Assembly: GCA_023129535.1 (NCBI GenBank)
Contig: JAGMBW010000135.1
Span: 1-34,104 of the forward strand
Length of the DNA stretch: 34,104 bases
Origin: Desulfobacterales bacterium
GTDB taxonomy: Bacteria > Desulfobacterota > Desulfobacteria > Desulfobacterales > C00003060
Direction of reading: 5' to 3'
Both the position numbers and the translations under genes were made by a program. Under the pieces are notes generated by a model that worked only from the letters and a program-made list of their open reading frames with translations, was not told the origin of the DNA and made no database searches. Shown one piece after another: positions 1,269 to 32,330 of this stretch; the stretch's first letter is position 1, and every line of letters begins with the position of its first letter.

Positions 1269-4200
1269 TTACTGGCTGCTGCTCAGGGTAATATCTACAT
1301 CGGAAGCGGGAGAGGACACCGCAGTTGCATCCTCCCTATCCGCCCCAGTGTCTACGCCGGTAGCGTACCACTTTGTGACATTGCCCGCCGCCCAGGCAAC
1401 CACCTTGTAGTTACCAGCAGCCAATCCGTCAAACGAGTACGGGTATTTGCCTGCCGCATCTGGCGTAATTACAGCAACATAACCTACAAGGTCACCGCTG
1501 CTGCTATCCCACAGGACGACATAGACCACGTTTGCAGCCGTACCAAGGGTGATCTTGCCACTGATGGCGCCGCCACACGGGATAAAAACATTTTGCGTAA
1601 CGTCGCCCCCAGTGCCGTCTATGTTACTAATCACCTTGAGACGCAGGTTCCCAGGCGGCACTACAACCAGATGGTAGTTAGCATCCTGGGGCAGCCCGGT
1701 GAAGTTGTAATAACCGTTTGCGACGGTCGTGGTCACCTTGAAGGAATCAGGTTTCCCAGGCCCCGGGTTGTAAGAGGCGATGACCTTGGCGCCAACAACT
1801 TCTGTATACGAAATACAATCGGTGGTTACCGTACCGTCAAGGTCAAATGTTTCTGCTGGTGGTGTGAAGGTAAAATCAACCACTGTGCCATCCGGAGTCG
1901 CGGGTTGCACGAGATTTGGATGAAAGGCTCTCTCGTATCCACGCTTCGAGGCAAAAACCAGATAGGTCTTAGTGGCATCCAGCCCATAGATGGCATAATC
2001 GCCACTCCCATCGGTCACAGCATAGGAAGGCTCCTCATCGGCCACTACGGCAATGATGGTTGCTCCCGCTATCGCGTTGCCGGAACCGTCTTGTACCTTA
2101 CCGTAGAAGTATGCCCCCTGACTCAGGGTGACATCTTGAGTCGTATCCCCGGTGATGTCCAGATCTTCCACCGTAGCACTCTGATAATCCGGGTGGCTTA
2201 CGTGAAGAGTATAGATACCATTCGGGATATCTCCGATGCTGTAATAGCCCTGGCTATTCGTGAAGTACATCCTGTGGCCGACGAGTTCACCGGTGCTGTT
2301 GTCGGTAAGGTAGAGCATAGCCCTGCTTATGGGCGTCACCGTTCCTTGCTCAGTCACCTGGCCTGACAGGGTATTTCCGGTGTCAATAATGAAATTAACT
2401 GCCACGCTGTCACAGTTGCTCCCATCTATTGTGATGCTCGTTACCTGAATTGCGTAATCACCGGTGAGCGGATTCATCTCAACCTGGTATGTATCCTGGC
2501 AAAGACCGGTTAACAGATAAGAACCATCCCGACGTGTGAATCCTGCCGCCTGGACCTTATCGCTGATTGCCGTAATCAGCGCCCCGGCAACGGGATCACC
2601 ACCTGTCCGCTCGTAGGTTACGTTGCCGCTGAGGGTGCAATCACACTCCGTTATATCAATATTTGCGTCTGACGACGAATCGCCAGCGTTTAGCACAAGG
2701 ATTGTTGCCTCGGACTCCTTTTGAGTTGTTTCAGTGGCGGACTTGTAATAGAAGGCCTTTCCGCTACTGAAGACAAATACCTCATAACTGCCCGGGGCCA
2801 CAGTCAAAGTGTAATTACCAGCGGAATCCGTTAGCTTAGAAACCAGGCCATAAGTGTTCACCTCAAGGGCATAGACACCAATATCTGCCACGCCGCTGCC
2901 GTTTTTGACCACCTGGCCGGTTATGGTGGCCCTTTCTACAGAAGTGAAGTCAAAATCGATACTTGTAGCATTGGCCGACGAAATATCGACCTTGGTGGCC
3001 TGCGTGATATCCGTTACATTAGAGTAATACTGCACCGGATTGTTCGCCGTGGTGACTGATACAATGTAGTCATTGGCAGGAACCAAATTTACAATCGTGT
3101 AGTCTACAGCCGACCCAGCCGTAAGACGCTTAAACTTAAGCAGTTTCCCGGTCTGCGAAGCCGCCTCAATTACAACTTCATCGTCGCTGCTCAGACCCTT
3201 GACCGTTCCTGCGATGGAATAAAGTGTGAGAGGCCAATTATATCCATCTATGTTGGCTTCACTTATTGAGCCGCTTTCCTGATTTCCGTAAACAAGAACA
3301 TATGTGTAATCTCCCGGCGCTAACGCCTCGGTTTCAAAATAGCCCTGATCATTTACAGGATAGATGCGTATGAGCTTGCCGTTTTCGTCAAAGACCTTGA
3401 CTCGCACACCGGGCAGGACCTGGCCGTTTATGGTCACAGTCCCGCTTTTTCGCACGGCCCCTGAAGCAAGGGTGAAATCCCTTGTCACGTTTTGCGTCAA
3501 CTCGAACCAGTCGGAAGACGCTTCAAGATACATCGAATCATAAGGATGGACGACCAGGCGGTAGCTTCCGGCCGGCTTGCTAAAACTATAAGTGCCATTA
3601 CGCACCGTGGTTTCCTCAATATACCAATAGCCTCCAGCGGCAGCCGTCGGCTTTTGCAGCTCCACAATAGAGCCATTGGCTGCGCCACCGTCCCCGTAAG
3701 TTACACTACCAGTGATCGTATATTTGGTTGCACTAACGGTAATATGTCCATCTACCAGCGAAGCAGTGTACACAGGGGTTGGATAATATCCCTCCGCATT
3801 TGAATAAGCGGCCGGCATGCCAATCAGTACAGGAGTAATAGTGGGCGTGTTATATCCGGCAGCAGGATTGTGAACTATTGTTTCCAGCAGCTCTATTGGA
3901 TAAGTACCATCGCCGCCCTTGATCAAAAACTTCGCCTTGAAAAGCCTCGGGCCCGTGACTTCATGGGCCGATGCAGCAGCCACTACCACTCTGCCGAACT
4001 TATTACCGTCTAAATCGCCCAGATCATTTACCTGATAAAACATGGTATTTTCGACGACATCGGCTGTATAACCGGTATATGTGCCCGCTCCTCCTGTTGT
4101 TGTAGTATAATACTCAGACGCGTCGCTAATGGCCTTTGTCTCCTGCTCGAGACCAACAAATTCAAAAACACCAGGATCATACCCAAGCGTAAAGGCAAGA

Positions 4201-4385
4201 CTTCCGACCTTTACCTCTGAGTCCAAGCTTATCGTTATCGGCAATGTCGCCGTATAACCGATACTCCCGGAATCACTTCCCACGGCGAGCGTGTTAGAAG
4301 CCATCACATCCGCGGCCGCGCCAAAAACCATAAACAAACTCATCAGCACAGCCAGACAGATTGAAATTTTCCGTATGTGATTCAT
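1269..4385 (-). CDS. Exported cohesin-domain protein with nine carboxypeptidase-regulatory-like repeats
   Basis: This 1038-residue protein starts at ATG 4385 with GGGAGG six bases upstream. Residues 1-29 are a signal peptide. Residues about 30-215 match the cohesin fold: the opening SDSGSIGYTATLPITI, then VGSLAFTLGYDPGVFEFVGL, are the characteristic first strands. From about residue 218 to the end I count nine CarboxypepD_reg/Cna-B-like beta sandwiches, each opening with a G-x-V/I strand (ITGSVTYGDGG, ITGQVVKNGSG, LSGQVTEQGT, FYGKVQDGSG, ISGKITLGT) and closing with a G-x-Y turn. Such repeats usually form rigid stalks or adhesion arms. No anchor, enzyme motif or dockerin is seen. It could be the receptor partner for dockerin-bearing neighbours; that link is inference. 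Cohesin-like binding specificity cannot be read from sequence alone. Confidence 0.85.
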   Translation of the reverse strand: MNHIRKISICLAVLMSLFMVFGAAADVMASNTLAVGSDSGSIGYTATLPITISLDSEVKVGSLAFTLGYDPGVFEFVGLEQETKAISDASEYYTTTTGGAGTYTGYTADVVENTMFYQVNDLGDLDGNKFGRVVVAAASAHEVTGPRLFKAKFLIKGGDGTYPIELLETIVHNPAAGYNTPTITPVLIGMPAAYSNAEGYYPTPVYTASLVDGHITVSATKYTITGSVTYGDGGAANGSIVELQKPTAAAGGYWYIEETTVRNGTYSFSKPAGSYRLVVHPYDSMYLEASSDWFELTQNVTRDFTLASGAVRKSGTVTINGQVLPGVRVKVFDENGKLIRIYPVNDQGYFETEALAPGDYTYVLVYGNQESGSISEANIDGYNWPLTLYSIAGTVKGLSSDDEVVIEAASQTGKLLKFKRLTAGSAVDYTIVNLVPANDYIVSVTTANNPVQYYSNVTDITQATKVDISSANATSIDFDFTSVERATITGQVVKNGSGVADIGVYALEVNTYGLVSKLTDSAGNYTLTVAPGSYEVFVFSSGKAFYYKSATETTQKESEATILVLNAGDSSSDANIDITECDCTLSGNVTYERTGGDPVAGALITAISDKVQAAGFTRRDGSYLLTGLCQDTYQVEMNPLTGDYAIQVTSITIDGSNCDSVAVNFIIDTGNTLSGQVTEQGTVTPISRAMLYLTDNSTGELVGHRMYFTNSQGYYSIGDIPNGIYTLHVSHPDYQSATVEDLDITGDTTQDVTLSQGAYFYGKVQDGSGNAIAGATIIAVVADEEPSYAVTDGSGDYAIYGLDATKTYLVFASKRGYERAFHPNLVQPATPDGTVVDFTFTPPAETFDLDGTVTTDCISYTEVVGAKVIASYNPGPGKPDSFKVTTTVANGYYNFTGLPQDANYHLVVVPPGNLRLKVISNIDGTGGDVTQNVFIPCGGAISGKITLGTAANVVYVVLWDSSSGDLVGYVAVITPDAAGKYPYSFDGLAAGNYKVVAWAAGNVTKWYATGVDTGADREDATAVSSPASDVDITLSSSQ

Positions 4386-10727: not shown

Positions 10728-11531
10728 TTACTGTGGCGGGTTTCGCAAGTCTGCCAGGACCTGCATGATGCCAACGGCCTCGGCCATCCCTATGATCCCA
10801 TCTCCTGAAAATTCGGCCAGTTCATGGACTGGTTCTGCCAGGGGCTGACGCGTCTGAACCTGCATGGCCAGGATGAGGTCCTTAAGGTCAATCACTTCGT
10901 CGTCGTTCAAATCCAACTTGCGGATGATCAACTCCACGATACTCACCGCATCGCCTTGCCAGTTATCTACCGCAATCGGTAGATTGCCGTCATCCCGCAA
11001 ACCAGCCAGGCCAAAACCGATGGCTGTAGTTTCCCCTGCTTCGGTGGTGGCTAAGGAACGAAAATAGACAGAGACAAGCACTTCACCCTCATCACTCACC
11101 GTAACCGCCTCTACCGGTCCTTTTCTCGCCAGACCAATGGTGACCCTGCCTGGCTGGTTGTTTACAAGAGCACTCAATAGAAAGGTCTCTGCAGTCCCCC
11201 CCTCGTTCAAGAGGTCACCTTCAAGCAGCTTGGGGAAAATCCTTTGGGTGAGCGGAATAGCGTCGATCACTTCAAGAAACTGAGGGTCGTAGACCAGGTC
11301 AATGCTGGCTCCATAGAGGAGATCTGCTGCACCAGCCGTTGGATTGACTTTGACCAGAACAAGGAACTCATGTCCCTGTTCCAGGATATCCACCTCTGTT
11401 TGTTTATAAGAGGCATGGAGTGAGACACTGTTCACCGCCCCGCTGGCGAGAGTAATCGGCAAATTGAAAGCAAGACCAAGAAAGAATAAACATCTGGCTC
11501 CGGTTCTTGTTATCCTTTTTAGAAAACTCAT
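10728..11531 (-). CDS. Exported cohesin-dockerin protein
   Basis: The start is set at ATG 11531, with AAGGAG seven bases upstream and a signal peptide directly after it; the longer frame runs through a dispersed repeat. The 267-residue product has a cohesin-like module at about residues 30-180 (LVKVNPTAGAADLLYGASID, then VYDPQFLEVIDA). At the C-terminus, about residues 200-260, are two dockerin-type loops: DLNDDEVIDLKD keeps the calcium positions D1, N3, D5 and D12, and EFSGDGIIGMAE is a degenerate second loop. Carrying both partner types suggests chaining to other exported proteins, or a self-contained family variant. No enzyme domain. It is the last gene of the minus-strand series that begins with the RHS protein. 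Confidence 0.8.
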   Translation of the reverse strand: MSFLKRITRTGARCLFFLGLAFNLPITLASGAVNSVSLHASYKQTEVDILEQGHEFLVLVKVNPTAGAADLLYGASIDLVYDPQFLEVIDAIPLTQRIFPKLLEGDLLNEGGTAETFLLSALVNNQPGRVTIGLARKGPVEAVTVSDEGEVLVSVYFRSLATTEAGETTAIGFGLAGLRDDGNLPIAVDNWQGDAVSIVELIIRKLDLNDDEVIDLKDLILAMQVQTRQPLAEPVHELAEFSGDGIIGMAEAVGIMQVLADLRNPPQ

Positions 11532-11567
11532 TGTTGTTCTCCTTGGTTCGAGGGGGCTAGAATCTTT

Positions 11568-11589
11568 GGTGGGCAATGCCCACCCTACA
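11568..11589. repeat. Second copy of the GGTGGGCA palindrome
   Basis: GGTGGGCA-A-TGCCCACC followed by CTACA repeats the core of the element at 1136-1196. Confidence 0.7.
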
Positions 11590-11624
11590 AATCCTGGTAT
11601 GTGTTTATCTTTCTTCAGGCCATT

Positions 11625-11655
11625 CTGACCACTGATCACTGACTACTGACCACTA
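11625..11655. repeat. Degenerate 7-base array, AGTGGTC type, containing a stop codon
   Basis: On the minus strand AGTGGTC, AGTAGTC, AGTGATC, AGTGGTC units run from the TAG stop of the ChrB-like gene; the stop itself belongs to the array. Confidence 0.75.
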
Positions 11656-12199: not shown

Positions 12200-13378
12200 T
12201 CAGTTGGACACCATCACTTTCTGGCTCCAGCTCCCCACCTGATCGCTCAGGGTTGCAATATTTACTGTAATAGTATGGGGACCATTTTCGAGAACACTGG
12301 TATCGAGGAGCCAGGTATACGGAGAATAGCCGCTTTCGTCTTCACCTGTCAGGACATCATCCACATAAAAGATCACTTCATACCTTTGCTGAAGAAGCAT
12401 TTTTTGGGTCAATTCCGAAAGAAGAACCTTAATTCCTACTCTACCTCGCAAGATCGGGATGTCGCCGCCTGATACAACCCCCTCCCCCTCCAGTTTCATG
12501 GTCACATCGGGCGGCCGGTTGGTGAATCTGTTCATCAAATAGTAATTGCTTATTTGAGTTTGAGTGTTTGACAGCGCCTTTTCCGTAACATCCCTTGCCC
12601 TGCGAAGAGCAGCCCTTGCATCTTCTGACAAGCGCATGTACTCAAACATCTCCATATCCTCTTTTCGGGCCCGTTCGGTCCAGTAGTCAAAATAATCAAG
12701 TTCGCTCCTGGCCACAATGATAGAATGGGGTGGTAAAGCAAAAGCAGAGGCATTCAAAACAAACCCATCTTTGTTCCAGATGATTTCCGCACCTGATTCA
12801 TCCTTTCCGTCCCAGGCTACAATATGATCCCCTCCCGTTGTAGGTGCCCAGTCCAGTATGGTCTTTCTTAAAGGGCCTCTTTGAATCCCGGCCCTGATCC
12901 GGATCCTCCCCGGCTCCGGAAGGTGATATCTGACCCCACCTTTCTGTTTATCCACCTGTGTATAAATTGTTCCCAGGTACTTGCCTCCGGAAAAGGCTGG
13001 ATTGTACAGGACGTGGCTGCCATCATCAAATACGAGCCCAACGGTAAAATAGTAAGCCTCAGCCGGAACCATCAGCCCATAGTTGTCTGTGCCATCCCAA
13101 ATAACAGTGTGCATTCCCGTGGGGCAGTAATGTCGATCCTCCAGGATTTTGACCAGGAAATGATTGGCATCAAACACCCTGGTCGTTACACGGGCCGATG
13201 CACGCAAATAAAAGGAGATGGCCGCCTGGCCGCCCGTGACCGGGTCAAGCACCTGTGGTTGCACTTCAATCGTTTCTGGTGAAAAAGCGTGTGAGTGGCC
13301 GGGCAGTACACCAAAAAGCAACACAAGAGAAAGCACGGCTGGCAGAAACAACTCCTTCAAATTCCCTCTTCTTCTCAT
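12200..13378 (-). CDS. Exported protein with FlgD-like Ig domains
   Basis: ATG 13378 is preferred: AAGGA lies about 9-10 bases upstream and the signal peptide (LPAVLSLVLLFGVLPGHSHA) follows; the frame opens earlier at 13423. The 392-residue product has two FlgD-like Ig sandwiches, recognised by V-x-D...G-x-H-x-x-x-WDG-x-D-x-x-G: TVIWDGTDNYGLMVPAEAYY near residue 85 and HIVAWDGKDESGAEI near 190. The carboxyl 100 residues form another Ig-like module (YSPYTWLLDTSVLENGPHTI). The same WDG-type sandwich closes the giant protein at 21270-32330, so the two share a building block. Such domains usually act as spacers or as docking ends of exported proteins. No enzyme motif. Confidence 0.78.
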   Translation of the reverse strand: MRRRGNLKELFLPAVLSLVLLFGVLPGHSHAFSPETIEVQPQVLDPVTGGQAAISFYLRASARVTTRVFDANHFLVKILEDRHYCPTGMHTVIWDGTDNYGLMVPAEAYYFTVGLVFDDGSHVLYNPAFSGGKYLGTIYTQVDKQKGGVRYHLPEPGRIRIRAGIQRGPLRKTILDWAPTTGGDHIVAWDGKDESGAEIIWNKDGFVLNASAFALPPHSIIVARSELDYFDYWTERARKEDMEMFEYMRLSEDARAALRRARDVTEKALSNTQTQISNYYLMNRFTNRPPDVTMKLEGEGVVSGGDIPILRGRVGIKVLLSELTQKMLLQQRYEVIFYVDDVLTGEDESGYSPYTWLLDTSVLENGPHTITVNIATLSDQVGSWSQKVMVSN

Positions 13379-13399
13379 TGATTGATTTCCTTTTCTGTA

Positions 13400-13562
13400 G
13401 GCGTTCACAGGTTCAGAGTTCACCGTTCAGGGTTACGGCTAACCCTGAACCTCTGAACCCGTGACACGAATCACCTGCCCGCTCGCCAAGCTTGCGAGGC
13501 AGGCGGGACGGTTTAGATTTTTGGTGAACCCTGAACCCGTGAACCATTGAACCCGTGAACGG
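13400..13562. repeat. GGTTCACG-type word arrays flanking a hairpin
   Basis: Two clusters of GGTTCA/GGTTCACG words and their reverse complements (13400-13460 and 13520-13562) surround a hairpin CCCGCTCGCC...GGCAGGCGGG at 13477-13504. It lies between the stop of the propeller gene and the start of the FlgD-like gene. Confidence 0.65.
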
Positions 13563-21269: not shown

Positions 21270-24200
21270 TCAATAAAACAGGTAAAACACCGAATATACG
21301 GCCTGCGACTCGTTGCCTGCCACATCTTTTGCCTTGAGCCTGACACGGTAGTACCCGGGGGCAACAAGCCTGCCATTTTCGTTCAGCCCGTCCCAATAAA
21401 TGGTATTCGGACCTGCACTGACCTGCTGACCCGTAAGCACTCGCACCATATTACTATTGAAATCCCAGACTGTTGCCTGCACATCTGCCTGCTTGGAAAG
21501 GAAAAAGCTGATGCCAAGGTCCAGATCCTCTTCATAAGGATTGAATGCAGGACTGAAATAGTGCGGAGAGGTCAACACATGGGACAAAAGCGGCCTGGTT
21601 TCCACAATCATGCCATTTTCCGCCAGGTACCAGGCGCTCGTAGAGATCGTATATGAGGTATCCGTTGGGATCAGGTTTCCGTCATCGTCGGTCCCGTCCC
21701 AGGTAACCACCTTGTTCCCTGATGTCATGGGATATTTCAACAGAATAGTCCTGATGTCCTGGCCCCAGTTCCATGCAAACACATACATGCTCACCTCGGC
21801 TGACTTTGCCAGGCTGAATCGGATATCCAGCGGATCGCCTGAGAGGGGGTCAAAGTTTGACTGGTACTGCTGATACGGCGTCTGCCGCTGGAACCCTTCG
21901 GTATTGGTGAGATCATAGACATACCGTGTGCCGCCACTCTCATACTCGGCAATAAAATAATAGACCCCGGGGTCAACGTGCTGGCCGTTGTTATTCCGGC
22001 CATCCCACGCGTACTGATGCACACCTGCTCCCACGTTCTGGTTAGCGATCAGGTTTCGCACCAGGCCGCCTTTTTCATCAACAACTCTCAGGGTCAGTTT
22101 CATGGAGCTGCACGTGGCCACGCTTATAGGCATGGTCTGCCCCGTCAAGGGATCAAAGCTTTGCCTGCCCCGCCATACCTTAAAGCCGGGGGTCACATTG
22201 ATATCAACAGCGGCCAGCCCGTACAGCCCGGATTGAGCCGTGACCTTGAGCAAGGCCCGGTATTGACCCGGCTGGGTGTAGTTGTGCTTAGCGTTACCGG
22301 TGGATGCAGAGTCCCAGTCATAGGCGCCGTCGCCATTGAAATCCCATTCATACTTGACAATAGGATCTCCGGCTGCTGGAGTGCCCCCACCCAAAAACTC
22401 AACAGACAGGGAAGCCGGACCTTCGGTGGGATCAGCCGAGGCCTGGACCGCCGGTGCGCCCGCATCCAGAACCAGAACATCGACCGAAGCGGTGGCCGTA
22501 TTGCCGTCATTGTCCTGCACCTCTACAACAGCCTGGTAGCTGCCGTTCTGTGTATACGTGTACGTGGCTTGAGATGACGAAGTTGCCGGTTCAAAACCGG
22601 ACCCTGTTCCAAAATCCCACCGGTACTGTATAATCGTCCCATCCTGATCGGTTGCATAGGCCGTAAAATCAACCCTTAGCGGCCCACTGCCAAATCGCGG
22701 ACTGGCTTCCGCCTCTACTGTGGGTGTGCCGGGCACGGTGACGTTGATCTCGATAGAAGCAGTATGTGTAAATCCGTCGTGATCCGTTACCTTGAGCGTC
22801 GCGTTATATGTCCCCGGCGTGTTGTATGTATGCTCTGTAGTCATGGATATGGGAGAGCTGAAGTCATAGGTGCCGTTCCCGTCAAAATCCCATCGAAAAT
22901 CGCGGATGGTATTGTCCGCGTCCGTCCCTTTGGTGTTAAACTTCACCCGGAGCGGCGCAGGGCCTGATGTAGGATACGCCACAGGTACTGCCACGGGAGG
23001 AACGCCGCCGGTTATGATCTCCACGCTGTCCGTTGCCTGTAGCCCGTCATTGTCTGTAACCCGCAACACGGCCACGTAAGTTCCTGTGTCACTATAAACG
23101 TGCTGGGTTTCGCCGATCACAGCAGAACTCCAGTCAAAATTGCCGTCCCCGTCAAAATCCCATTCATAGAGGACAATACTACCATCGGAATCCTGCCCAG
23201 TCCCGGTAAACTGGACGGTAAGGGGCACGTCTCCGGCCGATGGATCGGCGGCCGCATGGGCAGTCGGCGTCCCCGGCGGCACCAGGACGGTGATGGTAAC
23301 GCTATCGATATCCGTATTGCCGTCGTTATCGGTCACGGTCAGGACGGCATGATAGATACCAGGCGTAGTGTAGCTGTGGCTTGTGTTTCCCGTGGTATTC
23401 GACGAATATCCAATCTGCCCACTCACTCGGTAAAAGAGCCTCAAGGGATTGCCATCAGTATCAGTAAACCGGTACGCAAGGCCCCAGCCCCCCCCACCTT
23501 CGGATACACTGGACAGAATTCGATTCCAGCCCTCATTCAGAGTCACTTCAAAACTGTACTTATCGATGGATACACCCTCGCACGCTGTTTTTTCGTAAGC
23601 CAGGGTCCCATTCACCCAGAACCTGGCCGCATCATCCGCGCCAAATTTGATCCGGACTACCCGGTCCGTTGGTGAGTATATGTAAATGTGAGAATACGCA
23701 TAGCTGTTTGAATGGCTGCCAAAGACCCCATCCCAGTTGAAGTTTCCATCCGAATCACTGGCAGCAAACCAGGTTTTGCCGCCAAAGGTGTCTCCCTCCC
23801 TCGGCCAATGATCCAGGATGTCCTCTTGCATGCTGGTCACATCAGAGCAACCCGTAGAGGCCCAGGTGCCCAAAAACAACTGGTTGGTGGGATAGCCGGT
23901 CTCATTCAGTTGATACGCTCCTTCAAGACTCCAGTCTCCAAAATCCCACGCATAATTCGTTATCGTGTAATCGTCAGTGGAGCTGTTGGCTGTGAAATCG
24001 ACGGTCAAGGGGGCCGTACCTGTTACAGGTGTGGCCTTTGCCACGGCTGTTGGAGTACCAGCGGGCCTGACGAATACCGCCCGTGTTGCCTGGCCTGTCC
24101 CGCCATAAGAATCAGTTACGGTAAGGGTGGCAGTGTATGTTCCTGCCGGGGTGTATTCGTGGGCAACACTGGCACCGGTGGCTGTCTCACCATCCCCAAA

Positions 24201-27200
24201 ATCCCAGTCGTAGGAAATGATGCTGTCCCCACTGTCGTGGTCAAAAGAGGATGAGGCGTCAAATGTGACTTCAAGTGGTTCATTCCCTTTTACAGGCGTG
24301 GCCTCATCAAAGGCTGCTTCAGGAGGGGTATTCACTGTAATGGTCTTTGAATCCGTGGCCTCATAACCCTCATTGTCGATCACACGGAAGGTCGCTGTAT
24401 AGACGCCTGTCTGGGCATACGTAAAGTAGGTATTATCCACGGTTCTGGAACTCCAGTCGAAGATACCGTCACCATCGTAATCCCACTGGTATATGACTAT
24501 GCTGCCATCGGCATCGCTTGCCTGGCCATCCAAATGGATCTTCAAAGGCGGTGCGCCACTATCGGGGGTCACCGTGGCGGTTGCCGTGGGCGGGCTGGGA
24601 ATCACGGTGATGATGACTGCGTCGTAGACTGTACCTGAAGGACCCGTGGCCCGCAGCACCACTGAGTAGCTCCCCTGAGTCTGGAAGGTGTGGTCAACAC
24701 TGGCACCGGTCGCATCATAAGTCCCGTCTCCGCCAAAATCCCAGGCATATTCGGTAATCCTGCCATTCGGATCAAAGCCGCTCGCCGTAAAGTTTACCTG
24801 AAGAGGACCGACGCCCTGCGTTACGCTGGCCGAAATCTCGGCTGTCAAGTGACCAACTCGCACCGGCGACAGGTGCACATAATCTACGAGGCCGTCATTG
24901 TCCGTCACCCTTAGAACTGGCTGATAGTAGCCCTGTTCATCATAGATATGGCTCGCATTTGCAGACGCAAATGACTGATAATCAAACTGACCGTCACCAT
25001 CAAAATCCCACTCATACAAGACCACACTGCCATTGTCATCACTCGCAGATCCCGTGAAATTCGCCTGGAAGGGTATGGTTCCCGTATAGACATCCGCGGA
25101 GGCCGAGGCGGTAGGCGGGTTCTGGTTCTCAGGAGAATCCTCCCCGCTGATGACGTCCACATCATAGGGATCGTAGAATCCGCCCTTTCTGCTGACCTGG
25201 GTTCCGTTGGGGGATAGACGTTTGAGATCGTCGTTTCCGGTATCAGTCACCCAGCACTGCCCGGTTTGGGAGTCCACAGCAAGGCCGAAATCGTAATAAT
25301 GGAAACCGCCCGCCCGAGCCAATTCGAGAGTTCCGTCCGCACTGAGACGGACGATCTGACGATGGTCCTTGTCAGCCACCCAGACTGATCCGTCTGTCTG
25401 GTTGACGGCCACACGGGTCGGGTCGTCAAAACCGCTAACGCGGACAAGTTCGGCGGTTCCGTTCTCTGCCAGTTTTACTGCCTGGTGGTTAGATTTATCC
25501 GCCACCCAGCACGTGCCGTCAGTCTCGTCCACGGCGACGTGAGTCGGGTTGGAAAATCCTGCAATCTCCGTGTAACTACCCGATTCAGATCCGATGGTAA
25601 AACCATCAGTCACGTCGGGCTCAAAGCGATATACTTTGTCGCGTCCGTCATCCGCCACCCAAAAAACACCGTCTGTTCCATTGACAGCCACAGATTGCGG
25701 GTTGGAAAAACCGCCTATCCGTACAAGCGTATCAGCGGCCGGAGTAATGGCATTACACTTCCAGTAGGCGATCAATCCTGATTCGGTCCCTGCGAGCTCG
25801 CTATTGTTGCTATCACTGATTTGCTGTGCTGTCCGAACCACATTCCACACGCGGATTTCGTCAACAACGCCATCAAGCTCTTCGTTTGAGTTGAAATTCC
25901 CTCCTACCAGGTCCTGTTCCTGGCCTATGATTACCCCGCCAGGATCGACACCGAGGGGAATATCGTTTGCTGTTTTGGTTTCAATGAATGCACCATCTAT
26001 ATAAAGGGAAAGGTCTGAACCGCTTCTGACAAGAGTCAGATGATGAAACCCTTCATCGTTTAGATTAGGAACCGTGTACTCCAACTTACCCGATCCTTCC
26101 AGGTAGACATGCACGCTCGTTCCGCTACTCTTAAGATAGACCATCAAAGCATTATCATCGCCGCTTCTTGCGGCTGACAGTACGGCGCCATCGTGGCTAA
26201 AGCTATGGGTGAACCAGGCCTCAAAGGTGAAATCACCCAGGCCGTCCAGGACAGAAGAAGGAAGAATCAAATAGGAATCGCCTCCCAGGTCAATGCCGCC
26301 GTTAAGATGGGCAGTCGTATAGGGCGTTGCATCTCCTACAACAGTGGCGGTGTAGGCATTGGGCCCTAATCCGGCGGCAACCCCGGTGGTGGTGTATCCT
26401 ACGTGCCGCGAAATATCGACCGATGCCGGTATCTTCACCAGGCGATCGTTATTTCGATCCACCACCCAGCAGGCGCCGTCCCGTTTATCCACGTCAAGAT
26501 CATAAGGATAATTAAAGCCGCTGAAGACCTGGTGGAAGCCCCTGTCCGAAGAGACATTGTAAGCGTCAGGCGCATCCGCTTGTATCTTGTATACCGTATG
26601 GCCGTAGTAATCGGATACCCAACAGGTGCCGTCCGAAGGATTGACCGCCACAAAGATAGGATCATTAAAGCCTGTCACCTCTTTGATGACCGTCTGGCCG
26701 TCAGCAGCCAAGAGAACGATCTTGTCGTGGTTTCTGTCCGTCACCCAGGCCTTTGCCCACCCGATTCCGGCAGGCAGGACGCGCACCTGGGTGCTGTCAG
26801 AATCTGAACGGGTTCCACCCGTATCAGTGATGGTCAATGTGGCCGTATATGATCCAGGTGTGCTATACGTGTACGTTATTGCACCTGTAGAGGCACTGGA
26901 GAAAACAGGGCTTCCGTCTCCGAAATCCCACTTGTACTGACTGGGTGTGTCGTGAGCGACAGCCGCGTTGTCAAAGTAGGTGTCATCATTGGAGTTGCAC
27001 CACAGTCCCACGCCCCCGCTCGTGTAATCCGAGTCGGTCCCCTGCATGACCAATTCGCCATCCACGTAAACGGCAAACTGGCTGCCATCCACGTCGATAC
27101 GGATGCGATACCACCGGTTGGACTCGTATGCCACATCATCTGTGGCCAGTTCTTCAAGGCCGCCTGCTGTTCGCTTCAGAAGTCGACGGTGCAGAATGCC

Positions 27201-30200
27201 GCTTCTGTTTTGCCGGTTCCATTCAAACAGGTAGTATTGGGAATCATTCTGATACCGGAAAAGAACCCCCATCGTGTCGTCACCCGTGGAATGGATGTCC
27301 ACTGAAAAACTGTAGTCGTCCCAGGTGCCGTCGCTGGCGACAACATAAATACCGTACACGTCTCCTTCGGCCGCGTTGCCATCGTTGTTGGTCTGCTTAA
27401 GGATGCCGTCTGCTTCGACCCAGTTGCCCCCGCCCACAGGCGTGGCCCATATTGCCGGGTCAATCGTGTCATCCTCAAAATCGTCCAGGCTGCCATACCC
27501 TGAAAATCCAAAGCCAACAAAATTGACTGTAAGGGGGGCAAAACCTGAGGTGGCCGACAAGAGGCCTGTGGCTCCCAGGAAATCGCTTTCAAACACGGTC
27601 ACATCTATGTCTTCCGTGGTCATGAATCCCTCGTTGTCCATGGCTCGCAACGTGGGATGATAGAGCCCTGGGGTATCATAGGCATAATCCGCAGCCGCAG
27701 AAAGCGGCGAAAGCACATTGTAAATCCCGCTAAAGATGGCCACCTCTCCCAACTGTGTATAATTACCATGCCCGTAGTTCGAGGTGATAAGCATTTTGAC
27801 ATATTTTGCCGGCATCGCCGTAAAGGTGAAGGTTTGAAACCCGGCCTGGTTGGTAAGGGTAAACGTGGCTCCTTCAGCGATGGCCGTGAAGTCGCCCTCT
27901 TCAAGGCCCGTGGTAGACGCAAAAAGCTGGAAATTCTTTGCCCACCTGGTGCTGGATTCCGTGGTCTGGGGGTCGATGTCAAGGCGCTGTATGTTCCAGA
28001 TGTTACCTTCTGCCAGTGAGAATACGATCTCCTGGGGAAAGCCGGCATTGTATGCGCTGCACCATCCGCGGCTGTCGTTAGTGGCCACCACCCCGTCGAT
28101 GAGATTGGCTGCCGACCAGTTGGAGGTATTGTACTGGCTGGAAAAACTCACCACCTGGCCTGGCCCGGCGCTACCCCAATCATACGTGCCATCTCCATCA
28201 AAATCCCATTCATACCGAACAACGCTGCCGTCTTCATCCCTGGCTGAGCCGTCAAAGGATACATCAAGGGGGGCATTGCCGTGGGTGGTGTCTGCAGTCG
28301 GCTCCACATCCACTGGAGCCTTTTCTATGACCTGAAAGCTGACCGATGAACTCTCTTCAAGGCCACTATTATCCGTGACCCTGAACGTGGCCGTATAGGT
28401 GCCGGGGGAGGTAAATGAATAGAGCGTTACTCCAGTTGTCGTCGAGGACCAGTCGAAGGTTCCGTTCCCGTCAAAGTCCCACTCATAGAGAACGATCTCA
28501 CCATCGGCATCTGTCCCCTGGCCGACAAAGGCTACACCCTGCTTAAAATAAGGTCTACCGGATAAGGGTCGTTCGATCTGAGCCTGGGGAAGGGCCAACA
28601 CCGCAATGTTCACACTATCGGTATCGGTGAAACCGGCATTGTCTGTAACCATAAGGATGGGATGGTAGATTCCAGCTTGATTGTATGTATGACTGGTATC
28701 CCCGGTGGTGTCAGAGCTCCAGTCAATCGTACCGATACTGCCACTGACAACGACATCGTCAACATACCAACCGTCAGCGTTATAAGAGCCAGTATTGTTC
28801 AGCCGGAAGCGGATCATGACGTCCGACTCCCCGGCGTAGGCGCTCAGATCCACACGAACTTCGGTCCAGTCTGCCAGAGTACCTCGCGTGAATTTGGTGA
28901 ATTCTGTCCAGTTATTGCCATCATCCACTGAAACCTCCACCCAGCCTTCAGCATAATAACAGAAAGCATAGTGGTGCCAGAAACTCAAAGTCACCTGGGA
29001 AGAGGAGCTTAAGTCAAATGATCGGGTCACCAGGCTTGTATTCACATAGTCGACATAATCACCCAATGGGCTGTCGGTCCAGCAGTGGGTGCCACTGTGG
29101 GCATCTGAATCGATGATGCCCCACGGGACTTGGGCAGTCCAATTCCCTGAACCGGACTCCATATCGTCCTCAAAGGCCCCCTCAAAGTCCCACTCATAAA
29201 GGTCAATGGAACCATTGGGATCGTATGAGCCAGTACCTGAGAAATCCACGGTCAGAGGCGCAACCCCTGTATACGGGTCGGCACTCGCCACGGCAACTGG
29301 TTCTCCCCAGGTGACCTCTATGGTGAGCGAATCAGTGGAGGTATTTGCCTCATTGTCCGTCACACGCAGAGTCGGATGGTAGGTTCCCGCTTGTGTGTAC
29401 GTATAGGAGACGCTCCCAGACGTGCCTGTATGATCCTGGAACAGTTCTCCCACAACAACAACGTCGTCAATGTACCAACCGTCGCCATTGTACGTGTAAG
29501 TGTTGTTCAACCGGAAGCGGACCATAACATCCGACTCTCCAGCATAGGCGCTCATGTCCACCTGAGCCTGAGTCCAGTCGGCCTGGGTCCCGCTGAAATA
29601 GGTTAGTTGCGTCCAATCGCTCCCCTCGTCTGTGGAGACCTCTACCCGGCCATAGGCATACAAGGTGAATTCATGCCTGTGCCAGAAGGTCAGGGTCACG
29701 GGGTCAGATTCGCCTAAAGCGCTCAGGTCAAAGGATTTGCTGATAAGCGATACATCAGCGTTATCAGCATAGTCCTCCCCGGGGCTGTCAGTCCAGCAGT
29801 GGCTTGCGCTGTGAGAATCGGATTGGATCAGAGCCCAGGGCGTATAAGCCGTCCACTGGGAGGTTCCGGATTCCATGTCATCACGAAAAGGCGCAGTTGC
29901 AATATCGTCAAAATACCATTCGTAAAGCGTAATGGTGCCATCGTCAGAAGATCCGGAGGCATCAAAGTCCACCATCAGCGGCGCAATCCCGGTATAGGAA
30001 TCAGCGTTGGCCACGGCGATAGGGGTTCCCTCAGGAAGCACCTGGATGGTCTGGGTGGTCGTGTCTGTTCCTCCCTGGTCGCTAGTCACCGTGAGGGCAG
30101 CAGTATAGGCTCCGGCTGGAGTATAATCATGGGGAACGCTGGCCCCGCTGGCTGTCTGGCCATCCCCAAAATCCCAGGCATAGTCCGTAATGGCGCCCAC

Positions 30201-32330
30201 AGGTGTAGACGACCCGCTTCCATCAAATTGGACCGTCAAAGGGGCATTCCCTTTGACGACGTCCGCCAGCAGGACCGCGGTTGGCCTCCAGGCCGCAGGC
30301 AGGTTAGCTTCCACTTGTGTTGTGGCCGCTCCGGTCAACCCTGTATTATCCGTGACCTGAAACACCGGAGTGTAGGTCCCGACATTGGCGTATGTCGAAT
30401 AGGCGCTGCCGCTTCCAAGATTGTACCAGTCATAGCTGCCGTCGCCTTCGAAATCCCACTGATAAAACTCGATAGTTCCGTCCGGATCATTGCCGGTTCC
30501 TACCAGATTCGTCGTAAGAGGTGCGTCCCCGCTGTTCGGATTGGCGTAGGCCGAGGCCTGGGGACCGGCCTCATACACTTGAACGACCACGCTATCTATG
30601 GCTGTATCTCCAGCACTGTTTGTGACCTGGAACACAGCCGTGTAAGACCCCGGATCTGAATATTTGCGGGAGGTATCAGGATTGCTAAAATCGAAATAAT
30701 CCCACTCGCCGTCACCATTAAAATCCCAACGGTAGTTATCGATACGTCCCTCCACAGGGTCGATTGCCCGGCCGGTAAAAGAAAAATTTGTTACATTCGC
30801 TGTTCCGGTCAGCGGATCAGCGCTGGCTATGGCCGTCAACTGCCCCAGTTGCAGCATCTGGGTTGCATCGGTATCCGATAACCAATCATTGTCCGTTACC
30901 CGCAAGACAGGATTGTACATGCCGGGAGATGAAAAGGTGTGGGTTACAACAGGGGTATCTGCTGATTCATAGTCATAGGTTCCATCGCCATCAAAATCCC
31001 ACTCATACCGGATAATCTGCCCATCCACATCCCGGCTGCCACTGGCATCAAAGCGGACGTCCAGATTACCCAGCTTCTCCCAGGCAGCAACCGCCTCAGG
31101 CCGTCTGCGCGTGGCCGGTTCTTCACCGGGAACGGAAAGGACAAAAATGGGGTTGTTGAACCCGTCCAGACGGTGCAGTTCTGTTCCACCAGTTGATAAC
31201 TTAACCACCTGGTCATGATAATAGTCCGCCACCCAACATCCGCCTGTGAAAAGCTCGACCGAGACGGAAATAGGCCTGGACAATCCCCCGACTCGCAATC
31301 GCTCTATTACTCCGGATTGGGCCAACTTCACCACCTGGTTGTTGTTGTAATCAGCAACCCAGCAAGAATTATCCAGAGGATTGATGGAGACTGAGCGCGG
31401 GCTGGAAAAGCCGTTGGTCCTTCTAATCACCTGAACTCCGTTCTGGGCCACCAGCGCCACCTGATTGTTACCCGTATCAGCCACCCAGCAGGTTCCCTTC
31501 ACATAATTGACCGAGAGCGAGACTGGATCCTGGAAACCGGTAAGCACCGCATGGAATTCGGAGTCCGATCCGACGTCGTACCCGTCTGGTACATTGGCCA
31601 GCAGCTTGACGATGCGATCATTGTAGGTATCGGCGACCCAGCAGCTACCTTCATTATGGTTCACCGAAACCGATTTAGGACTATTAAAACCAATAAAGTT
31701 CTTGTGATAACCGGTGTTGTTGACCAGGTCATAACCATCAGGGGTATCCTCTGCGAGGCGAACAATACGGTCATTGCCTGTATCGGCGACCCAGCAACTA
31801 CCATCCAGGGAATTTACGGAAACCGATTCCGGCGCAGAAAAGCCGCTAATTCTTCGAAGGATGGGAGAGCCATCAGCATCATATTCCAGCCTGATGATCT
31901 CATTGGCGCCTTTGTTGGCTATCCAGGTGATGCCATTGGAGACATTAACGCCAACTGCTGTGGGATCATTCAGGTTCTCCAAAAGTCTGATCTGATTGCC
32001 CGTTTCTGCCCCCAACAAAACGACTCGGTCGTTGGCAAAATCGGCCACCCAGCAACCCTGGCTTCTTGCTATTCGGCCGAAGTAATCCCGAAGAATAGCC
32101 AGGTCTGCGTCGTCCACGGTTCCATCTCTATTAAGGTCGGCCCTGGGGTTCCAGTGGGCATCGCCGTCTGTTGAATCATAGGCACGGGAAAAGGTGATCA
32201 GATCAAACCCGTCCACGCGTCCTGACTCATCGATGTCCCCAGGCAGCGCCCATGCACTGGAATAGGGGGCAACGCCCGTTAATAAAAATATCAATGAAGC
32301 TATGAGAATCTTTAGATATGTTTTTGACAT
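21270..32330 (-). CDS. Giant exported PKD protein with nested binding domains
   Basis: The 3686-residue protein starts at ATG 32330, with AGGGGATG about eight bases upstream. A signal peptide (1-28) is followed by a two-loop dockerin (about 30-90; DIDESGRVDGFD and DLNRDGTVDDAD keep all calcium positions). Residues 92-397 hold seven NHL-type propeller blades (GSCWVADTGNDRIVRL). Eighteen PKD domains (motif Y-x-W-D-F-D-G-D-G) follow up to about 3377. Guest domains sit inside hosts: InhA/MAM-like at about 813-962 and 1052-1198, F5/8-type C at about 1392-1538, a LamG/thrombospondin-C-like sandwich at about 1613-1793, LamG at about 1980-2180 inside a second seven-blade propeller (1858-2397), and PA14 at about 2797-2967. 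Three FlgD-like Ig domains close the protein. No enzyme motif or anchor is seen. The domain types point to glycan or surface adhesion. Confidence 0.92.
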   Translation of the reverse strand: MSKTYLKILIASLIFLLTGVAPYSSAWALPGDIDESGRVDGFDLITFSRAYDSTDGDAHWNPRADLNRDGTVDDADLAILRDYFGRIARSQGCWVADFANDRVVLLGAETGNQIRLLENLNDPTAVGVNVSNGITWIANKGANEIIRLEYDADGSPILRRISGFSAPESVSVNSLDGSCWVADTGNDRIVRLAEDTPDGYDLVNNTGYHKNFIGFNSPKSVSVNHNEGSCWVADTYNDRIVKLLANVPDGYDVGSDSEFHAVLTGFQDPVSLSVNYVKGTCWVADTGNNQVALVAQNGVQVIRRTNGFSSPRSVSINPLDNSCWVADYNNNQVVKLAQSGVIERLRVGGLSRPISVSVELFTGGCWVADYYHDQVVKLSTGGTELHRLDGFNNPIFVLSVPGEEPATRRRPEAVAAWEKLGNLDVRFDASGSRDVDGQIIRYEWDFDGDGTYDYESADTPVVTHTFSSPGMYNPVLRVTDNDWLSDTDATQMLQLGQLTAIASADPLTGTANVTNFSFTGRAIDPVEGRIDNYRWDFNGDGEWDYFDFSNPDTSRKYSDPGSYTAVFQVTNSAGDTAIDSVVVQVYEAGPQASAYANPNSGDAPLTTNLVGTGNDPDGTIEFYQWDFEGDGSYDWYNLGSGSAYSTYANVGTYTPVFQVTDNTGLTGAATTQVEANLPAAWRPTAVLLADVVKGNAPLTVQFDGSGSSTPVGAITDYAWDFGDGQTASGASVPHDYTPAGAYTAALTVTSDQGGTDTTTQTIQVLPEGTPIAVANADSYTGIAPLMVDFDASGSSDDGTITLYEWYFDDIATAPFRDDMESGTSQWTAYTPWALIQSDSHSASHCWTDSPGEDYADNADVSLISKSFDLSALGESDPVTLTFWHRHEFTLYAYGRVEVSTDEGSDWTQLTYFSGTQADWTQAQVDMSAYAGESDVMVRFRLNNTYTYNGDGWYIDDVVVVGELFQDHTGTSGSVSYTYTQAGTYHPTLRVTDNEANTSTDSLTIEVTWGEPVAVASADPYTGVAPLTVDFSGTGSYDPNGSIDLYEWDFEGAFEDDMESGSGNWTAQVPWGIIDSDAHSGTHCWTDSPLGDYVDYVNTSLVTRSFDLSSSSQVTLSFWHHYAFCYYAEGWVEVSVDDGNNWTEFTKFTRGTLADWTEVRVDLSAYAGESDVMIRFRLNNTGSYNADGWYVDDVVVSGSIGTIDWSSDTTGDTSHTYNQAGIYHPILMVTDNAGFTDTDSVNIAVLALPQAQIERPLSGRPYFKQGVAFVGQGTDADGEIVLYEWDFDGNGTFDWSSTTTGVTLYSFTSPGTYTATFRVTDNSGLEESSSVSFQVIEKAPVDVEPTADTTHGNAPLDVSFDGSARDEDGSVVRYEWDFDGDGTYDWGSAGPGQVVSFSSQYNTSNWSAANLIDGVVATNDSRGWCSAYNAGFPQEIVFSLAEGNIWNIQRLDIDPQTTESSTRWAKNFQLFASTTGLEEGDFTAIAEGATFTLTNQAGFQTFTFTAMPAKYVKMLITSNYGHGNYTQLGEVAIFSGIYNVLSPLSAAADYAYDTPGLYHPTLRAMDNEGFMTTEDIDVTVFESDFLGATGLLSATSGFAPLTVNFVGFGFSGYGSLDDFEDDTIDPAIWATPVGGGNWVEADGILKQTNNDGNAAEGDVYGIYVVASDGTWDDYSFSVDIHSTGDDTMGVLFRYQNDSQYYLFEWNRQNRSGILHRRLLKRTAGGLEELATDDVAYESNRWYRIRIDVDGSQFAVYVDGELVMQGTDSDYTSGGVGLWCNSNDDTYFDNAAVAHDTPSQYKWDFGDGSPVFSSASTGAITYTYSTPGSYTATLTITDTGGTRSDSDSTQVRVLPAGIGWAKAWVTDRNHDKIVLLAADGQTVIKEVTGFNDPIFVAVNPSDGTCWVSDYYGHTVYKIQADAPDAYNVSSDRGFHQVFSGFNYPYDLDVDKRDGACWVVDRNNDRLVKIPASVDISRHVGYTTTGVAAGLGPNAYTATVVGDATPYTTAHLNGGIDLGGDSYLILPSSVLDGLGDFTFEAWFTHSFSHDGAVLSAARSGDDNALMVYLKSSGTSVHVYLEGSGKLEYTVPNLNDEGFHHLTLVRSGSDLSLYIDGAFIETKTANDIPLGVDPGGVIIGQEQDLVGGNFNSNEELDGVVDEIRVWNVVRTAQQISDSNNSELAGTESGLIAYWKCNAITPAADTLVRIGGFSNPQSVAVNGTDGVFWVADDGRDKVYRFEPDVTDGFTIGSESGSYTEIAGFSNPTHVAVDETDGTCWVADKSNHQAVKLAENGTAELVRVSGFDDPTRVAVNQTDGSVWVADKDHRQIVRLSADGTLELARAGGFHYYDFGLAVDSQTGQCWVTDTGNDDLKRLSPNGTQVSRKGGFYDPYDVDVISGEDSPENQNPPTASASADVYTGTIPFQANFTGSASDDNGSVVLYEWDFDGDGQFDYQSFASANASHIYDEQGYYQPVLRVTDNDGLVDYVHLSPVRVGHLTAEISASVTQGVGPLQVNFTASGFDPNGRITEYAWDFGGDGTYDATGASVDHTFQTQGSYSVVLRATGPSGTVYDAVIITVIPSPPTATATVTPDSGAPPLKIHLDGQASDADGSIVIYQWDYDGDGIFDWSSRTVDNTYFTYAQTGVYTATFRVIDNEGYEATDSKTITVNTPPEAAFDEATPVKGNEPLEVTFDASSSFDHDSGDSIISYDWDFGDGETATGASVAHEYTPAGTYTATLTVTDSYGGTGQATRAVFVRPAGTPTAVAKATPVTGTAPLTVDFTANSSTDDYTITNYAWDFGDWSLEGAYQLNETGYPTNQLFLGTWASTGCSDVTSMQEDILDHWPREGDTFGGKTWFAASDSDGNFNWDGVFGSHSNSYAYSHIYIYSPTDRVVRIKFGADDAARFWVNGTLAYEKTACEGVSIDKYSFEVTLNEGWNRILSSVSEGGGGWGLAYRFTDTDGNPLRLFYRVSGQIGYSSNTTGNTSHSYTTPGIYHAVLTVTDNDGNTDIDSVTITVLVPPGTPTAHAAADPSAGDVPLTVQFTGTGQDSDGSIVLYEWDFDGDGNFDWSSAVIGETQHVYSDTGTYVAVLRVTDNDGLQATDSVEIITGGVPPVAVPVAYPTSGPAPLRVKFNTKGTDADNTIRDFRWDFDGNGTYDFSSPISMTTEHTYNTPGTYNATLKVTDHDGFTHTASIEINVTVPGTPTVEAEASPRFGSGPLRVDFTAYATDQDGTIIQYRWDFGTGSGFEPATSSSQATYTYTQNGSYQAVVEVQDNDGNTATASVDVLVLDAGAPAVQASADPTEGPASLSVEFLGGGTPAAGDPIVKYEWDFNGDGAYDWDSASTGNAKHNYTQPGQYRALLKVTAQSGLYGLAAVDINVTPGFKVWRGRQSFDPLTGQTMPISVATCSSMKLTLRVVDEKGGLVRNLIANQNVGAGVHQYAWDGRNNNGQHVDPGVYYFIAEYESGGTRYVYDLTNTEGFQRQTPYQQYQSNFDPLSGDPLDIRFSLAKSAEVSMYVFAWNWGQDIRTILLKYPMTSGNKVVTWDGTDDDGNLIPTDTSYTISTSAWYLAENGMIVETRPLLSHVLTSPHYFSPAFNPYEEDLDLGISFFLSKQADVQATVWDFNSNMVRVLTGQQVSAGPNTIYWDGLNENGRLVAPGYYRVRLKAKDVAGNESQAVYSVFYLFY

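Follow-up and report, generated by a model that had tools for sequence, protein, structure and literature searches.

Whole domains nested within PKD domains of a giant, probable surface display protein from a Desulfobacterales bacterium

The stretch of DNA analysed here, referred to as the window, comprises 34,104 nucleotides of a Desulfobacterales genome (contig JAGMBW010000135.1, assembly GCA_023129535.1). Its minus strand carries a giant open reading frame, P0001, the features of which are collected in Table 1. Read from the N terminus, the protein consists of a signal-like stretch, a dockerin, an NHL propeller, four PKD domains, two split PKD domains (S1 and S2), one further PKD and another two split PKDs (S3 and S4). 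These are followed by a second NHL propeller, four PKDs, the split domain S5, four more PKDs and three FlgD_ig domains. P0001 thus contains 18 PKD domains, 13 of them intact and five (S1–S5) split by guests of about 140–180 aa. The product of the gene directly downstream, P0002, matches the RHS_repeat and teneurin YD-shell profiles with 509 and 53 bits, respectively, and has a C-terminal part of roughly 200 aa beyond a DPLGL motif. Elsewhere in the window, FlgD_ig and Big_7 domains also occur in a 407-aa protein (12200–13423, minus strand), which is 31% identical over 188 residues to the FlgD_ig module of P0001.

Table 1. Features of P0001 and the adjoining gene; residues refer to P0001 and positions to the window.
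Feature	Position	Strand	Evidence
P0001, giant surface protein, 3686 aa, signal peptide-like N terminus	21270..32330	-	open frame, domain profiles
Dockerin type I, residues 29-86	32073..32246	-	Pfam PF00404, 26.5 bits (cut-off 22.9)
N-terminal NHL beta-propeller, uninterrupted, residues 89-399	31134..32066	-	profile search, propeller alignment
PKD x4, intact, residues ~411-764	30039..31067	-	PKD profile
S1 host PKD, N half, residues 770-808	29907..30023	-	PKD profiles
S1 guest, InhA/MAM-reelin type jelly roll, residues 809-966, C-D turn	29433..29906	-	
S1 host PKD, C half, residues 968-1006	29313..29429	-	PKD profiles
S2 host PKD, N half, residues 1011-1052	29175..29300	-	PKD profiles, AlphaFold model
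S2 guest, InhA/MAM-reelin type jelly roll, residues 1053-1199, C-D turn	28734..29174	-	AlphaFold model
S2 host PKD, C half, residues 1200-1244	28599..28733	-	PKD profiles, AlphaFold model
S3 host PKD, N half with complete C-D turn, residues 1340-1391	28158..28313	-	PKD profiles
S3 guest, F5/8 type C, residues 1392-1536, D-E loop	27723..28157	-	Pfam PF00754
S3 host PKD, C half, residues 1537-1579	27594..27722	-	PKD profiles
S4 host PKD, N part, residues 1583-1613	27492..27584	-	half-domain profile
S4 guest, concanavalin-like (3keto-disac_hyd/LamG type), residues 1614-1794, B'-C loop	26949..27491	-	PF06439
S4 host PKD, C part, residues 1795-1851	26778..26948	-	PKD_4, 55 bits, columns 33-85
Second NHL propeller, first part, residues 1855-1965	26436..26768	-	propeller alignment
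LamG (Laminin_G_3) guest inside propeller, residues ~1966-2200	25731..26435	-	PF13385, 76.5 bits
Second NHL propeller, second part, residues 2201-2398	25137..25730	-	propeller alignment
PKD x4, intact, residues 2405-2753	24072..25118	-	PKD profile
S5 host PKD, N half, residues 2760-2798	23937..24053	-	PKD profiles, model
S5 guest, PA14-like jelly roll, residues 2799-2972, C-D turn	23415..23936	-	fold match
S5 host PKD, C half, residues 2973-3015	23286..23414	-	PKD profiles, model
PKD x4, intact, residues 3020-3379	22194..23273	-	PKD profile
FlgD_ig-like x3, residues 3384-3686, C-terminal module conserved throughout the family	21273..22181	-	
P0002, RHS/YD-repeat (teneurin YD-shell-like) protein, directly downstream of P0001	16201..20952	-	

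A PKD profile built from only the 13 intact PKDs of the window stops midway at five sites of P0001 and resumes past the guest at a complementary column. The partial matches cover columns 2–42 and then 50–89 at S1, 2–52 and 45–89 at S2, 5–57 and 45–89 at S3, 11–39 (weak) and 31–87 at S4, and 2–44 and 45–89 at S5. With the Pfam PKD_4 profile (cut-off 27 bits), single halves, tested for S1 and S5, score 18–33 bits. When the guests are cut out, the scores are 51.8 (S1), 52.3 (S2), 45.8 (S3) and 61.5 bits (S5), over columns 4–85. Given the complementary half-profiles and the full-length matches once the guests have been removed, the host PKDs of S1, S2, S3 and S5 are complete. At S4, PKD_4 matches columns 33–85 alone and does not detect the N half, which scores 16.4 bits with a half-domain profile, a value reached by none of the 4883 scored shuffles. 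The nesting of whole guests inside PKD domains of P0001 is real.

In the PKD domains of collagenases, strand C and the turn leading to strand D lie within the motif DxDGxIxxYxWDFGDG, and strand E starts at HxY (PMC4356367); the strand names used here for the PKD hosts follow that work. The guests of S1, S2 and S5 replace the C–D turn of their hosts. At S3, the F5/8C guest is preceded by the complete WDFDGDGTYDW turn and therefore lies in the D–E loop, and the S4 guest sits in the B'–C loop. According to the initial annotation, four guests occupy the same host loop, with the break after Y-x-W-D-F, and a fifth lies one loop earlier. The shared loop applies to S1, S2 and S5 (three of the five), but not to S3, which keeps the full turn and breaks in the D–E loop, nor to S4.

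AlphaFold models were obtained for two of the host–guest units, S2 (residues 1009–1248) and S5 (residues 2757–3017), from alignments of 47 and 12 rows, respectively, the former combining window and relative sequences. The S2 model has a mean pLDDT of 92.2. Its best PKD match is that of ColG (4jrw), to which the predicted host can be superimposed over 86 residues (1.8 Å, Z 13.5) spanning model residues 1–239, that is, both flanks, while the guest (model residues 43–191) matches the MAM domains of reelin and meprin with Z of about 16. The S5 model is weaker (pLDDT 73.9), with a guest part of middling confidence. Its host nevertheless corresponds to the PKD of 2c26 over 88 residues (1.3 Å, Z 13.9), spanning 1–261. 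In both models one PKD sandwich closes around the guest, which is the outcome of the closure check proposed at the outset.

The guests of S1 and S2 match Pfam Reelin_subrepeat-B with 34.1 bits (cut-off 27) and InhA-like_MAM with 25.5 bits, slightly below its cut-off of 26.9. That of S3 is an F5/8 type C domain (PF00754, 44.1 bits; cut-off 28.2). The names given in the initial annotation to the two InhA/MAM-like guests and the F5/8C guest hold, the former by both profile and fold (the fold from the S2 model). The fifth guest, described there as LamG/thrombospondin-C-like, is the one in S4. It is concanavalin-like, of the 3keto-disac_hyd/LamG type (best Pfam match 3keto-disac_hyd, PF06439, 42.6 bits; cut-off 26.8), and thrombospondin-C was rejected at 22.3 bits, under the cut-off of that profile. 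For the S5 guest, called PA14, there was no match to the Pfam PA14 profile at E ≤ 1. Its model resembles the sugar-binding PA14 domain that 6m8m shows for an RTX adhesin (Z 9.5, with GH2 jelly rolls scoring equally), and the guest is predicted to be PA14-like by fold only. To speak of unrelated guest types was an overstatement, since the MAM, F5/8C and PA14-like guests share the beta-sandwich jelly-roll fold. Domains of the MAM-, F5/8C-, concanavalin- and PA14-like kinds often have glycans, proteins or membranes as ligands.

Several other proteins with such domains were encountered. An F5/8 C protein matched in the PDB (7js4) has a PKD-like C half that is possibly interrupted. In a 2444-aa protein (L022), MAM-like domains with Fn3-like linkers are arranged end to end over nearly the full length. 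In two proteins with a prepilin N terminus (L025 and L027; 893 and 895 aa), a domain resembling the MAM guests interrupts a concanavalin-like region, so that this nesting habit may extend to a further, pilin-like class of protein.

A sixth nesting, absent from the initial annotation, involves a different host. The second NHL propeller of P0001 is interrupted by the LamG domain, and its two pieces, when joined, align over the entire length with the uninterrupted N-terminal propeller (residues 10–310 against 8–316; E value 7e-69). In relatives of P0001 the nesting reaches three levels, with LamG inside an NHL propeller inside a PKD, at residues 2875–3471 of L038, 2832–3427 of L032, 2823–3419 of L036, 1855–2449 of L033 and 1427–2016 of L046. 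In the propeller that follows S3/S4, the number of LamG domains is zero for L035, one for the window and two for most others.

These relatives were retrieved by a scan of 84,980 species genomes and by searches of genomes related to that of the window. The giant ones, of up to 4054 aa, come from Desulfobacterota-type genomes and one Scalindua metagenome-assembled genome (MAG). They include proteins from a MAG of the same genus (L031/L024; Guaymas), Desulfobacula sp. (L032, 4008 aa), Desulfobacter latus (L036, 4000 aa), Desulfatibacillum alkenivorans DSM 16219 (L038, 4054 aa), a Desulfocapsa MAG (L034), a Desulfobacterales MAG (L046), a MAG that could be misbinned (L035) and a MAG of Candidatus Scalindua, Planctomycetota, which could likewise be misbinned (L033). 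As far as each record reaches, the giants have a common order: propeller, three to four PKDs, S1, S2, one to two PKDs, S3, propeller, four PKDs, S5, three to four PKDs and three FlgD_ig domains. Short relatives (about 850–1380 aa) consist of one to three PKDs followed by three FlgD_ig domains, and no sockets were found in the sequence stretches examined.

The positions of the split domains correspond across the giants, whereas the guests differ. Slot 1 holds a MAM domain in all giants. The guest of slot 2 is MAM for the window genus, an NHL propeller for L032, L034, L036 and L038, and PA14-like for Scalindua; that of L035 is different again, a diverged sequence that matches the propeller weakly. 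The guest of slot 3 is F5/8C in the window and L035 and MAM in the other giants. At slot 4 the window has its concanavalin-like guest and L035 an intact PKD after S3. Slot 5 is occupied by a PA14-like guest in the window genus and L035, and by a propeller holding LamG in L032, L033, L036, L038 and L046. The initial annotation had suggested a search for homologues with another guest or none, and this search indeed yielded corresponding sockets with other guests. Furthermore, in L026, an unrelated 2514-aa protein of the same order, the C–D turn of PKDs is split by concanavalin-like guests (residues about 460–1320). With PKD_4, two of its hosts reach 31.4 and 35.8 bits once the guest has been cut out, and L026 is an independent case of PKD hosting.

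The type of junction also corresponds. Searched for as a fixed pattern, the C–D turn motif precedes the guest in seven of eight S3 hosts versus none of 22 hosts of other slots; the pattern missed the S3 host of L036 (DFNGDGTFE), where the turn is present by eye, and the counts keep the pattern result. Among MAM guests alone, the figures are 5/6 for S3 and 0/9 for the other slots (Fisher p 0.002). Since the turn motif is specific to S3, also when only MAM guests are considered, the junction type goes with the slot rather than with the guest.

We consider it probable that P0001 is a long surface display scaffold, comparable to the split Ig domains of RTX adhesins but with PKD hosts. The idea that PKDs serve as hosts has been borne out, and that of a display architecture is well supported, by two models that close around their guests and by relatives that keep the sockets while the guests vary. 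In such a scaffold the intact PKDs would be extender beads and the split ones sockets. The chain would leave the PKD sandwich at C–D, D–E or B'–C, fold a complete guest, re-enter and complete the PKD. The guest, a beta-sandwich or beta-propeller with termini close together, would project sideways from the rod, tethered through two covalent strands. Given the kinds of domain found as guests, P0001 most likely works as an adhesin or a binding display. We infer export, sideways projection and ligand binding of the giant from the guest families and from precedent. The NHL propellers are atypical as ligand-display modules and may have another role. The protein could also be anchored non-covalently: its dockerin (Dockerin_1, 26.5) and the cohesins on two proteins of the window make docking at the cell surface possible. 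The cohesin-bearing proteins are encoded at 1269–4385 and 10728–11639 (both minus strand), one of them with five CarboxypepD_reg domains. Cohesin scores are 30.2 for P0004 and 24.1, at the cut-off, for the protein at 10728–11639. The cohesin region of P0004 had no match in the loci of the relatives, so cohesin does not emerge as a conserved neighbour.

As to how the sockets are filled, the family keeps the socket positions, and guests would be exchanged or host–guest units duplicated, by which the binding of the rod would be retuned. One possibility is that of fixed split-PKD sockets into which binding domains or whole propellers, which can themselves be sockets for LamG, were swapped in evolution (PKD > propeller > LamG); guest variation would then have arisen by exchange. 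It may equally be that the sockets are not fixed, and that whole units of host and guest were copied, relocated and recombined by way of the repeated PKD sequence. The S1 and S2 units of the window genus speak for such shuffling. Their guests form a clade (94/94) separate from the single clade of the S3-slot MAM guests, Scalindua included (100/99), and their hosts are grouped at 86/84; judging from the guest clade, it was most probably the S1 unit that gave rise to the S2 unit, the two guests stemming from duplication of one host–guest unit and not from two captures. Likewise, the PA14 host of S5 in the window falls among the slot-2 hosts, whose guests are propeller or PA14, rather than among the propeller hosts of slot 5. 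However, the guests differ (PA14 versus propeller) even within that host group (87/88), the D–E junction of slot 3 is common to F5/8C and MAM guests, and the intact PKDs flanking the sockets group by position across species. Split hosts group apart from intact PKDs (7 tree changes versus a shuffled mean of 28.5). AU tests on the 87-column host tree gave p values of 0.163 (slot 5), 0.115 (slot 2) and 0.329 (PA14 hosts). For the guests of the giants as a single clade, the AU p value was 0.263, which neither establishes nor rejects such a clade. Since host trees of 87 columns fit slot-wise descent and cassette movement alike, the designation 'same socket' is based on domain order and junction type. 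Guest exchange and movement of whole units probably both occurred. A recurrent insertion mechanism, as had been suggested, finds no support: at six junction pairs the flank-to-flank repeats measure 5–8 bases, no longer than in random pairs (fraction as long 0.15–0.99), and the G+C content of the guests (0.515–0.558) is like that of the whole gene (0.539).

Other explanations dispense with display or extend it. That the half-PKDs merely surround an independent domain, owing to an assembly error or domain decay, might be suspected of a window from a draft genome of 230 contigs, but this explanation is practically negligible. The same splits occur in the same-genus genome, in the cultured Desulfatibacillum alkenivorans DSM 16219 and in Desulfobacter latus, the halves are complementary and not degraded, and the S2 and S5 models close; the recurrence in relatives and the closing models already refute it. 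Neutral nesting, with guests with close termini landing by chance in tolerant PKD loops and nothing being displayed, is unlikely. Insertions are found in about 20% of multidomain proteins (PMC13114784), and the C–D turn varies among PKD structures (PMC4356367), both of which would suit such an origin. Yet the socket positions are conserved across distant genomes and nearly all guests have binding-type folds. Moreover, in a survey of 48,263 insertion pairs (PMC13114784), the median guest and host measured 115 and 199 residues and the guest was the smaller in 77%, whereas every guest of the giants exceeds its 87-aa host. A further explanation would join the giant and the RHS/YD-repeat protein in a single contact or delivery complex, the nested domains serving to recognise a target and the RHS protein to exert the effect. 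The RHS gene directly follows the giant in the window and in L024, L030, L032, L033, L035, L036, L038 and L046, and thus in nearly all relatives with flanking sequence. The argument is, however, one of co-location, and the gene also lies beside most of the short, socket-free relatives for which the flank is available (it was not detected beside L126), so that the linkage is to the PKD/FlgD_ig core and not to the sockets. Such a complex is therefore conceivable but rather doubtful.

The display scaffold, as we envisage it, can be compared with several known systems. In fold, motifs and sequence, its hosts are like the PKD_4/PKD domains (PF18911, PF00801) of the ColG and ColH collagenases. The solved PKDs matched here are continuous, whereas the hosts of the giants are interrupted by guests of 140–515 aa. 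The metallopeptidase InhA2 (4yu5, 4yu6) has a MAM domain of the same family as the S1 and S2 guests, which is reportedly likewise grafted into a beta-sandwich domain; unlike P0001, InhA2 is a protease with a single guest and another host. An archaeal surface-layer protein (1l0q) also combines propeller and PKD, in tandem according to its title, whereas they are nested in the giant relatives. The A1-B-A2 and A1-B1-C-B2-A2 patterns of nested insertions in general (PMC13114784) are those of the giants, which differ in their large guests and in having repeated sockets with exchanged guests. In the literature searched, where most subscription papers were outside reach, we found no case of a PKD with an inserted domain and no paper combining PKD, RHS, NHL and Desulfobacter. 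Broken PKD matches may be of practical use in pointing to likely binding domains for which routine annotation provides no context. The giants also offer a natural set of insertions, in known loops, that are larger than their 87-residue host, which should be useful for domain insertion studies and protein design.

A further comparison is with the RTX adhesins and their split Ig-like domains (PMC12077191, PMC10865825, where Graham 2024, 10.1002/prot.26689, is cited). P0001 itself was ruled out as an RTX adhesin: there are no RTX repeats among its Pfam matches, and the C terminus consists of three FlgD_ig domains. In those proteins, a ligand-binding domain is carried on two strands by a split Ig-like bead, which makes it protrude from the rod; ligand binding is proven for domains projected in this way, and split domains have been put forward as a marker for ligand-binding domains (PMC12077191, PMC10865825). 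The premise of the initial annotation, that domains of long surface proteins are normally chained end to end, overlooks these cases. Like P0001, the adhesins MpIBP, FrhA and AhLap are long chains of beads in which an Ig-like bead is interrupted by a complete beta-sandwich, including one of PA14 type, and in one case a guest is itself interrupted (vWFA in AhLap), which resembles the multi-level nesting in the giants. The differences lie in the host, split at the C–D turn or D–E loop in P0001 but after the first strand in FrhA, in the number of sockets, five in the one protein P0001, and in their arrangement, spread along the chain in P0001 but gathered in one ligand-binding region in RTX adhesins, and in the propellers, which in the giants, unlike in RTX adhesins, serve both as guests and as hosts. 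Here, other bacteria use the split-domain trick with another host fold, one protein has several sockets, and the guests vary from relative to relative, which suggests a general construction rule for bacterial surface rods.
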